Made by a program: the position numbers and the translations under genes
Source: Dictyophora rubrovolvata
Lineage: Eukaryota > Basidiomycota > Agaricomycetes > Phallales > Phallaceae
Length of the DNA: 64,000 nucleotides
Assembly (NCBI GenBank): GCA_029959195.1
Contig: CP114121.1
Location: 1,798,001 to 1,862,000, forward strand
Reading direction: 5' to 3'
The notes under the pieces: model-generated
Databases searched by the model: none
The model's input: the letters and a program-made list of their open reading frames with translations, nothing else
What the model was told of the DNA's origin: nothing
In this document: positions 32,757-41,623 of the stretch, in pieces
Layout: every line of letters begins with the position of its first letter
Position numbering within the stretch: the first letter of the stretch is position 1

Positions 32757-35700
32757 ATGGCATCAACCTTATACGGAACGATCATCCACAAAGGATTCTA
32801 CGACCTCCTTGCTTATACTTCTTCTTTCATCGCCGGTCCAAGATACGAAAGTATCCCTCCCAGTTCACCGCCTGTGGTCGTAGAGTCAAGCGCGGCTGCT
32901 AAAGCATTGGCACTGGACAAGGGAAACTATGCTAGTCCAAATCCCGGCCCCAAACCCGGTGCTAGAATCACCAAGGATATGATTTCCCATCCCAGAGAGT
33001 TCAAGTTGAGTTGATTTCTAGTCCGTTTTGGGATATCCCTTTATAACCGTTATTACTACCCACAGGCATCTCGTACACGCTTCGGATGCAGACCAAGCCG
33101 AACTACTCTTACGTCGTTGGGGACCTGACCAAATCGGAAAGCTAGGCGGTGAGTAGTCCCCCCTCCCCTCCCTGGACCTATCTCAATCTCCAAACAGACC
33201 CACGATGGGCTGAACCCATTAAACGGGTGATACGGCAACAGAAAGCAGTTGCCGAGGTTGTCAGTGCCTATCCTCATCAGGGCTATACAGAAGGACTCGG
33301 GGCGAGAGGAGACGACGGACACAAGTACGACGACGGAGGGAAGCTTAATGTCAAAGTCCAGACAAAAGGAGAGATAGAGGCGAATATCAGGGCCCCACTT
33401 CTTCAAGCTCAGACAGCGCGAACCAACATAGATCAAATGCAAAGTCCAGGTCAAGGTCAATTTCAATCTCAATCTCAACAACCCCCGCGACAGCAACCTC
33501 TAGGTCCTCTCCGTGTCATTAATCAAGTTACGGAGCCGACTTTATCAACCGTAACAGTTAGTTCAACGGGTGCTACGTTGCACCACGCCGATATCGTTGG
33601 TTTCGGGTTTGAAGGTGATCTTGCTGAGGGTTTATCATCTCATATTCATGGCTTGCCGCCGCAATCGGGATTCATCTCGCCATTTTCTGCGTCGGGCGGA
33701 GGCGGCGGTTTTGGACCGATCGGGTCTGCAGCGCTGCCTGGACAAGGCGGGCCTGGCCCTCGCCCGTCTACTCTCCGTAAAGGAGGGCTGGAGACCCATT
33801 TCGAAGTTAGTCAGCCCACTAACCGTGGTCGTCAACAAGAACAGAAACAATTGCCATTACCGTTCCCAACTCTGATGACCAACCCAGACACTAGCCAACT
33901 GGACATTCAATCCCAAATCGAAGAAAGTCTCTCGAGTAGTATTCACGAGGGACGACGCTCCAGCTCTGGATTCGAAATTCGGGAACTTTCCCCTACCCCA
34001 GCTACCAAACCTCAACCTCAGCCTCAACCTCAACCTCAACCTCTGCGTCAACGCACAATAACTCCTTCCCTTCCAACCCTTGAGAAGGCTATCTCATGTC
34101 GCATCTATTTCGAGAACCTGTACTTCCCGCTCTTACGCCATCCGCCTTCGCGGGAACAGCGCAGGTTGGCGATGGAACAGGATATGGATATTCTTGGAAT
34201 AAATGAACAACTTAAGGAGACGGTGAGGGATATGTGGAAGAGAAATGAGACTGAGTATCTCAGAGAGCAGAGAAGAAAGGTCGACGTGAATTGTTTCGAG
34301 CGGATTAGAATTATTGGACATGGTGGGTTTTTTTGTCTCACTTGAAAATTTCCCCGTTCCTTTGCATTCGTTTTTAATTTGTCGCGATTGTCCCACAGGC
34401 GCGTTTGGAGTTGTTTCACTTGTACGTGAAAAACAGACTGGACAATTGTTGGCTATGAAACAGGTAAGGGGGCTAAGATTACAATCACAATTCAATTTTT
34501 TTCCATCATTCTCCAGCTTCGTAAAACCGACATGTTGCGCAAAGGTCAGGAAGGACATGTCCGCGCCGAGCGCGACGTTCTCAAATCAGCTGCGCTAGTC
34601 GGCGGTTCTGTATCTGAATGGATTGTCAAGCTGTTTTACAGTTTCCAAGACTCGGACCATTTGTATTTGGTAAGTTTCGGGAAATATTCAAGCCGTACCA
34701 GTAATTCATGACATTCTCTTTCTCTATTTGCACTTTTTTTTCGTATTCACACCTATTCTGGAACATTGGAACTTCGACTTTCTAAACGACGGGTTTTGTA
34801 TACGTGTTTATTACTCTATGCACAACCCTACCTGGTTTATCTCCAACTCTGGTCACCGTGTATGGCATTTTGTCTCCGTCGATTCTTACTCCTTTTTTCG
34901 CTTGGTTATGCTTATTGATATATCGGGTTTGCCGGCGATGTCAAATTCTGGTTCTGGTTGTATCCCTGGCTTGGGCTCCGGTTCGATTGGTACCTGCTTC
35001 CTGTTTTCTATTTCTCGGTGTCATTTGTGATTTCACTGGTGTTTTTTTTTGTAACTCACACCTTGAAACTTTGTGTTATCGTTATATTTTTCCCCGTTAC
35101 AACATCGGAACTCCGTTCTTACTTTTCTTTCTTCCATATTTTTTCCACATTGGATGCCTTCTGTTTCTATTCTACCCCCTCTCATTGTCGGGCACCTTTA
35201 TCCAACGTGTTCGCTTATACCAATCTTCCTTTCCCCATTGATTGACCTGTACCTGACATCCGATCGGACATGTGTTTTGACTTTTGGCACGTCTTCGCCT
35301 TTTCACTTATCATCATCTCACTTCTTCTCTAACCCTGACCTCGCTCCTCGCTGTCCTGTTTACGCTTATGATACGCGACGCCATACCACAATGCCGTTTT
35401 CTTATGCAACTGGTCAACCCTTCCACGCATACTGCCTACATACATACATGCACGCACAAACTTTTCTTTTGGTGTGGATTATGACCCCAATTCACGATGC
35501 TGACGGCACAGATCCTCGAGTACATGGGCGGTGGGGATTTGCTCAACTTGCTGATCGCTAAAGATATATTTGAGGAAAATTTTGCGAGATTCTATGTTGC
35601 TGAAGTTTGTATTCTTCTTTTCGTTTTTCATTGTTTTTTTTTCCTTTTTCTTTCCATCACACACTGTCTTGGTTTTCTTTTCATCTCTGATTTTTGTTCG

Positions 35701-41623: not shown

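Follow-up and report, generated by a model that had tools for sequence, protein, structure and literature searches.

The DNA analysed was a window of 64,000 nt from Dictyophora rubrovolvata (contig CP114121.1 of assembly GCA_029959195.1, positions 1,798,001-1,862,000, forward strand), and all coordinates given below refer to this window. It contained a gene for an NDR-type protein kinase, the exons of which were placed manually on the sequence and then joined. The joined coding sequence (2874 nt, 17 exons) had its only stop codon at the end and encoded 957 aa. The gene and its smallest exons were located as follows:

32757..41623, + strand, NDR-type kinase gene, 17 exons, 957 aa; single final stop in the joined frame; matches Cbk1 (4lqs) and Pfam Pkinase
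36467..36480, + strand, exon 10, 14 nt; placed by homology and frame; absent from the gene-finder run
38353..38372, + strand, exon 11, 20 nt; starts where an AG-free zone ends; placed by frame, homology and a CGTNSY motif; absent from the gene-finder run
38701..38721, + strand, exon 12, 21 nt
40153..40177, + strand, exon 14, 25 nt

The kinase gene was adjoined, in divergent orientation, by a homeodomain gene (29991-31761, - strand; Pfam Homeodomain, E 3.8e-11) that contained long His-, Ser- and Gly-rich stretches; a fold window at 31081, in this gene, had the lowest z-score of 2130 windows (-6.33). A C2H2 zinc-finger ORF was present at 44618-45256 on the - strand (Pfam E 7.8e-08) and was absent from the gene-finder calls. 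The interval 17584-29890, about 12 kb in length, contained almost no credible gene in the gene-finder run and may hold missed genes. One ORF within it (25915-26394) matched no Pfam family, and the longest AG-free run of the interval was 210 nt (- strand, 29110-29319).

Among solved structures, the one closest to the joined kinase was yeast Cbk1 (PDB 4lqs, E 4.9e-105), followed by human STK38. The Pfam Pkinase family was matched with 205 bits, and the Pfam kinase C-terminal domain scored 14.7 bits, below its cut-off of 20.9. The alignment with Cbk1 covered query residues 9-395 and 424-512 of 530, and every conserved stretch was present; therefore, no conserved exon is hidden in the long introns. 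The catalytic motifs of AGC-type kinases were present and were matched to Cbk1 by the alignment. The NDR/LATS features that aligned to Cbk1 were the insert before the activation segment, the activation-loop Ser, the hydrophobic motif and the N-terminal region, and these presumably have their customary roles, including the predicted Mob-binding role of the N-terminal region. Judged by its sequence, the predicted protein is a Cbk1-like kinase of the NDR family. Searches of the whole kinase against viral contigs (4 pattern matches, 0 confirmed) and of a 203-aa part of it against prokaryote contigs (90 pattern matches, 0 confirmed) are uninformative on conservation in fungi, the two collections being of viral and prokaryotic sequences.

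The N-terminal region of the protein contained a CRIB-like motif at about aa 75-88 (32960-33003 and 33004-33100), which was interrupted by intron 1. The likeness is to the consensus of the CRIB motif, which binds Rho GTPases. The sole Pfam match of the 14-residue motif was PBD (CRIB), at 13.3 bits with a cut-off of 21.3 (E 0.11), and the whole kinase protein had no PBD match at E up to 1. An NDR kinase that carried such a motif would be of interest.

The exons of 14, 20 and 21 nt encoded most of LAYSVCGTNSYMSPEVIRG, the activation segment of the kinase. When the three + strand frames of the 2.3-kb interval between exons 9 and 12 were searched, the pattern G[TS]..[YF] was found twice, once spanning a stop codon and once in the 20-nt exon. 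The gene finder used here was self-written, was trained on this window with the kinase gene as seed and had settings that favour short introns; in its final run, exon 6 and the 14-nt and 20-nt exons were not called. These three exons were placed on the basis of homology, frame and splice sites, and exons 6 and 11 are further supported by the AG-free zones, each of which stops precisely at the acceptor of the exon concerned. An unbroken kinase encoded by a gene with ordinary introns (49-76 nt), eight long introns (243-1872 nt) and exons as small as 14, 20, 21 and 25 nt had been proposed in the initial annotation of this DNA, and the open joined frame and the Cbk1 alignment confirmed it.

Of the 16 introns of the kinase gene, eight were short (61, 49, 76, 53, 54, 60, 71 and 73 nt) and eight were long (842, 353, 1872, 328, 666, 698, 494 and 243 nt). 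GT-AG dinucleotides bounded 15 of them, and intron I8 (36160-36219) was a GC-AG intron with the donor GCAAGT. The donor of I1 had a low splice-site score. The long introns were indeed situated in the kinase domain, as had been noted before, but this domain also held the short introns I3, I4 and I7-I9. Outside the kinase gene, 57 introns were predicted, of which 54 were in genes of at least 80 aa. With one exception, these 54 measured 44-100 nt (median of the 54, 55 nt), and the exception, at 410 nt, is apparently a false join of two genes. The remaining three, among them introns of 512 and 625 nt, belonged to two genes of 39 and 16 aa that were regarded as spurious. The bimodality of intron sizes claimed earlier was borne out, and the long introns of the kinase gene are exceptional in this window. 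In the excerpts of published work compared here, mean intron length was 426-469 nt in a few fungal species and 63 nt in Cryptococcus neoformans (PMC8476143), and Cryptococcus introns longer than 500 nt were spliced poorly (PMC11913375).

Each long intron contained 37-52% T, in agreement with the T-richness reported for them initially. However, the T content of the long kinase introns (39.8%) was equal to that of the short kinase introns (39.0%) and of 53 other introns (38.7%); intergenic DNA contained 29.0% T and 28.8% A. T-richness as a special mark of the long introns was thus ruled out, and the T content shared by the long introns is no valid argument for secondary growth. That short introns expanded secondarily is plausible as such.

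Six of the long introns were of the following structure:

35605..35957, + strand, I6, 353 nt; CTGAC 20 nt from the 3' end; 6 AG, 5.6 expected
38373..38700, + strand, I11, 328 nt; CTGAC 25 nt from the 3' end; 10 AG, 8.5 expected
38722..39387, + strand, I12, 666 nt; CTGAT 12 nt from the 3' end; 11 AG, 17.2 expected
39455..40152, + strand, I13, 698 nt; CTGAC 20 nt from the 3' end; 15 AG, 20.4 expected
40178..40671, + strand, I14, 494 nt; CTGAT 15 nt from the 3' end; 10 AG, 12.0 expected
40912..41154, + strand, I15, 243 nt; CTGAT 21 nt from the 3' end; 2 AG, 5.1 expected

All six thus carried a CTRAY motif 12-25 nt from the 3' end. The number of AG dinucleotides was 0.64-1.18 of expectation in five of them and low in I15, where the counts are small. 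When the long introns were pooled (noted for I12-I15, 38722-41154), there were 23 YAG against 33.7 expected from the AG count and 1 GTRNGY against 6.8. Avoidance of decoy sites across all eight long introns was not relied on, since YAG was also low, in milder form, on the + strand of unannotated DNA (z -2.35), though not on its - strand (z 0.10).

Additional content of the long introns was also considered. Undetected extra exons would have reduced the introns to normal size; the completeness of the Cbk1 alignment was accompanied by coding scores within the range of shuffles in seven of the eight long introns (P 0.165-0.65; P 0.03 in I11). The longest stop-free run was unusual in I10 (P 0.015) and in I13, and neither had a raised coding score or a Pfam family at cut-off; the run in I13 (39567-40181, + strand) exceeded those of all 200 dinucleotide shuffles. 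Of three intron ORFs compared with Pfam, two had no match, and the third matched DENR_N below its cut-off (E 0.097; 12.7 bits, cut-off 25.3). Hidden exons and nested genes were rejected on the mostly shuffle-like coding scores, which leave the stop-free runs of I10 and I13 unexplained. An origin of the long introns from repeats (introners or transposon insertions) was rejected as well, as blastn within the window gave only three short, chance-like matches (16-30 nt, E 0.03-0.06).

The other two long introns, I5 and I10, were almost free of AG dinucleotides:

34670..35511, + strand, I5, 842 nt, AG-depleted; 2 inner AG, shuffle mean 24.7
34702..35509, + strand, AG-free zone of I5, 808 nt; reaches the acceptor AG at 35510-35511
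36481..38352, + strand, I10, 1872 nt, AG-depleted; 2 inner AG, shuffle mean 67.0
36505..37361, + strand, first AG-free zone of I10, 857 nt
37361..37363, + strand, the single AG in the body of I10, a GAG
37364..38350, + strand, second AG-free zone of I10, 987 nt; reaches the acceptor AG at 38351-38352

The lowest AG count in 2000 composition-keeping shuffles was 11 for I5 and 48 for I10, whereas 2 were observed in each. Relative to the composition of the intron interiors, 2 AG were observed and 21.8 expected in I5, and 2 were observed and 64.6 expected in I10. In I5, an AG at offset 30 was followed by none before the acceptor. In I10, an AG at offset 22 was followed by the GAG at offset 881 and then by the acceptor at offset 1870; the intron is AG-free over about 1.85 kb (1845 nt) if the one GAG is passed over. 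A count of 0 AG against 88 expected over the three zones holds by construction, and the unselected test is that of the whole-intron counts.

The three zones were the longest AG-free runs on either strand of the window (987, 857 and 808 nt). The next were 210 nt on the - strand (29110-29319, CT-free on the + strand) and 169 nt on the + strand. For dinucleotides other than AG, the longest stretch of the + strand lacking one of them was 288 nt. Elsewhere in the window, every one of 6090 windows of 808 nt (both strands, steps of 20 nt) contained at least 15 AG. The depletion was strand-specific, CT on the same strand being at 0.92 (I5) and 0.90 (I10) of expectation, and only AG was missing from the zones, where the other 15 dinucleotides were at 0.71-1.36 of expectation. 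In the pooled interiors of the eight long introns, 58 AG were found in 4936 nt, which is 0.37 of expectation (CT, 0.88); the corresponding AG values were 0.60 in the other short introns (53 or 54), 0.86 in the short introns of the kinase gene and 0.95 in unannotated DNA. The zones started about 24-32 nt past the 5' splice site, upstream of every CTRAY, and ended exactly at the acceptors that homology requires. The three zones allow 7956 different single substitutions, of which about 979 would give rise to an AG. It may be concluded that the AG-free stretch before the acceptor in I5 and I10 is far longer than chance would allow. AG exclusion zones in two of the eight long introns are a feature beyond the account given in the initial annotation.

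Candidate branch sites near the 5' ends of these two introns were as follows:

34708..34712, + strand, candidate distant branch site ATGAC of I5, a weak motif; putative branch A at 34711, 800 nt from the end of the intron
34713..34747, + strand, pyrimidine tract behind the candidate branch site of I5; 83% C+T, 97th percentile of the intron
36516..36520, + strand, candidate distant branch site TTGAT of I10, a weak motif; putative branch A at 36519, 1833 nt from the end of the intron
36521..36555, + strand, pyrimidine tract behind the candidate branch site of I10; 83% C+T, 97th percentile of the intron

The distance from the 5' splice site to the candidate branch A was 41 nt in I5 and 38 nt in I10; the same spacing in short introns had a median of 38 nt (the 13 of 62 with a clear motif). 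The first HTRAY was at offset 38 in I5 and 35 in I10, a pattern that is present in 16% and 26% of 16-nt windows, respectively; it was picked with the sequence in view and omits GTAAT at offset 31 (I5) and offset 6 (I10). The most pyrimidine-rich window of I10 began at offset 42. In the 35 nt before the acceptor, the pyrimidine content was in the 1st percentile in I5 and average (58th percentile) in I10. Motifs close to the 3' end were also found, namely ATGAC 27 nt and CTGAC 8 nt from the end of I5 and CCAAC 15 nt and CTGAC 67 nt from the end of I10, and the candidates are no stronger than these. Better CTRAY motifs were present inside the zones, at offsets 583, 659 and 665 in I5 and at offsets 246, 369, 935 and others in I10. 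A CTRAY anywhere was found in 15 of 62 short introns; since 47 of the 62 have none, its lack near a 3' end says little. Counted from the candidate branch sites, the acceptor of I5 was the first AG, and one GAG preceded that of I10; whether first-AG use holds depends on the true position of the branch site. Folding that would bring the branch site near the acceptor was rejected: the predicted branch-acceptor path was 65 in I5 and 20 in I10, compared with 51 and 42 in 60 shuffles (15% of shuffles were as short as I10), so that the distance was not reduced beyond what shuffles show, although short paths are to be expected in any folded RNA of such length.

Taken together, I5 and I10 are probably distant-branch-point introns in which the acceptor is chosen as the first AG. 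The spliceosome would recognise a short 5' module in which the branch A follows the 5' splice site at a distance of about 38-41 nt, as in the ordinary introns of this DNA. The first step would take place at this module, and the second step would take the first acceptable AG, 800 nt (I5) or 1833 nt (I10) away. Any new AG in the zone would then become a false acceptor and break the kinase, and selection would therefore have purged AGs. Historically, I5 and I10 would have grown between the branch site and the 3' splice site. In the remaining six long introns, the branch site would lie close to the 3' end and growth would have occurred upstream of it, where AGs could be kept. If unit recognition were limited to the 5' module, even a 1.9-kb intron before a 20-nt exon would be spliceable among introns of about 55 nt. 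An explanation by splicing is suggested because the AG loss affects the sense strand only and the acceptor dinucleotide only and ends at acceptors required by homology, and because the one AG left in the body of I10 is a GAG. Because the branch motifs are weak, the case rests mainly on the AG exclusion and the point at which it starts.

The 3'-proximal motifs of I5 and I10 and the several CTRAY inside the zones would suit a branch site within the zone or close to the 3' end, which may be one of several alternatives, with AGs purged only as decoys for upstream branch-like motifs. The scarcity of strong decoys in the eight long introns compared with 60 dinucleotide shuffles (donors, 4 against 8.2; acceptors, 2 against 9.8) is also in line with this explanation. 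However, the zones start before any CTRAY, and a branch site at, for example, the CTAAC at offset 246 of I10 or 659 of I5 would not account for the absence of AG between the start of the zone and that site. Moreover, the other six long introns also possess YTRAY motifs and have nevertheless kept their AGs. This arrangement is therefore considered rather improbable. The loss of AG could also be an oddity of composition, mutation or assembly without function, as TA and GT are somewhat low in the zones (0.71 and 0.79 of expectation). This seems scarcely credible given that AG alone is at zero, on one strand, in two introns, in zones ending at acceptors, and that CG, CA and TG are not low (1.10, 1.12 and 1.34), contrary to CpG/CpA decay.

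The initial annotation interpreted the long introns as products of T-rich secondary growth that might host regulatory RNA, slow transcription or allow kinase isoforms. The bimodal intron sizes, with 53 of 54 other predicted introns at 44-100 nt, are consistent with it, as is one stable hairpin in I12 (38782-38901, -31.4 kcal/mol), which was beaten by none of 1000 dinucleotide shuffles (none below -27.6); on a shifted grid, a fold window at 38761 in I12 had a z-score of -3.5. As stated above, T-richness is common to ordinary introns. Regulatory RNA found no support in Rfam, which had no match in the window, nor in 34660-41160 at E up to 0.5, or in the mean fold z-score of -0.30 (81 windows, with a single hairpin as outlier); a tRNA scan found none. 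Nor does T-rich growth predict an AG loss confined to two introns. As an explanation it is very unlikely, whereas intron growth as such is compatible with distant branch points. Stepwise removal, by recursive splicing or as stwintrons in which long introns are nested short ones, would account for the length of the introns. Stwintrons occur in fungi and are likewise unusual, composite long introns, but no inner intron signals were found here: the ratchet site YAGGTRNG was present in none of the eight long introns, and there were 2 intron-like site pairs against 7.0 in shuffles. An inner acceptor is, besides, impossible in an AG-free zone, and hardly any probability is assigned to this possibility.

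Returning to distant branch points, it seems on balance somewhat likely that, in this fungus, splicing proceeds from a branch point situated about 40 nt from the 5' splice site to the first acceptable AG, 0.8 or 1.8 kb farther on, that the intervening stretch is kept AG-free by selection, and that the introns of this gene grew in two modes, upstream of the branch site with AG tolerated and downstream of it with AG purged. If true, the choice of a 3' splice site would span nearly 2 kb in a fungus whose ordinary introns measure about 55 nt, a point relevant to the range and the manner of the spliceosome's search for an acceptor after the first step. The non-coding bases of the zones would be subject to a constraint both strong and simple. 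Sequence gained downstream of the branch site would have to be AG-free at every step, so that most insertions would be barred, whereas upstream growth would be free, and one gene would display both outcomes of intron growth. Counting AG is a test that needs sequence only and is answerable in any sequenced relative.

The kinase resembles yeast Cbk1 (4lqs) and human NDR1/STK38 (6bxi) in its kinase domain, in the insert before the activation segment, in the activation-loop Ser and in the C-terminal hydrophobic motif. It differs from them in having a long N-terminal region with the CRIB-like motif and about 29 extra residues in the C-lobe (query 396-424).

For the introns, the nearest known systems are found in vertebrates. 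According to the excerpts of the published work used for comparison, vertebrate distant branch points are characterised by an AG exclusion zone, a branch site and pyrimidine tract lying toward the 5' end and use of the first AG, with distances of up to about 400 nt and a tested PTB zone of 381 nt (PMC1431707). The introns of alpha-tropomyosin and PTB exon 11 described there resemble I5 and I10 in the AG-free region abutting the acceptor, the pyrimidine tract lying toward its 5' end and the normal AG content upstream; they would also share the branch motif beside that tract and the use of the first AG if I5 and I10 are spliced from their candidate sites, with one GAG passed in I10. In contrast, the exons tested there are alternatively spliced, and here zones of 808 and 987 nt are found in a gene otherwise of short introns. 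If I5 and I10 are spliced as proposed, the branch point and acceptor would be separated by two to nearly five times the maximum found in the literature excerpts compared (about 400 nt); the bins of the distribution plot in PMC1431707 extend to about 1,000 nt, and longer human zones may exist.

OGDH intron 4a, as described in the part of PMC7969005 used here, has its branch As at 25-41 nt past the 5' splice site, and in one fish the zone contains a GAG that is not used as an acceptor. The likeness to the present introns lies in the long AG-free, U-rich zone, the fish zones without YAG and, for the candidate sites proposed here, the branch As near the 5' splice site and the passing of a GAG. The OGDH zone is about 280 nt and enforces mutually exclusive exons, whereas here exons 5 and 6 and exons 10 and 11 must join for the kinase to be made. 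In yeast, according to the excerpt of PMC11651659, second-step factors matter from 12-21 nt and reporters span distances of 9-50 nt; 0.8-1.8 kb would therefore be extreme. Among the matches listed from titles and abstract openings of the open-licence literature, none described a fungal AG exclusion zone of great length. AG-exclusion introns are known in vertebrates, and those proposed here would be fungal and longer than the ones in the excerpts compared.
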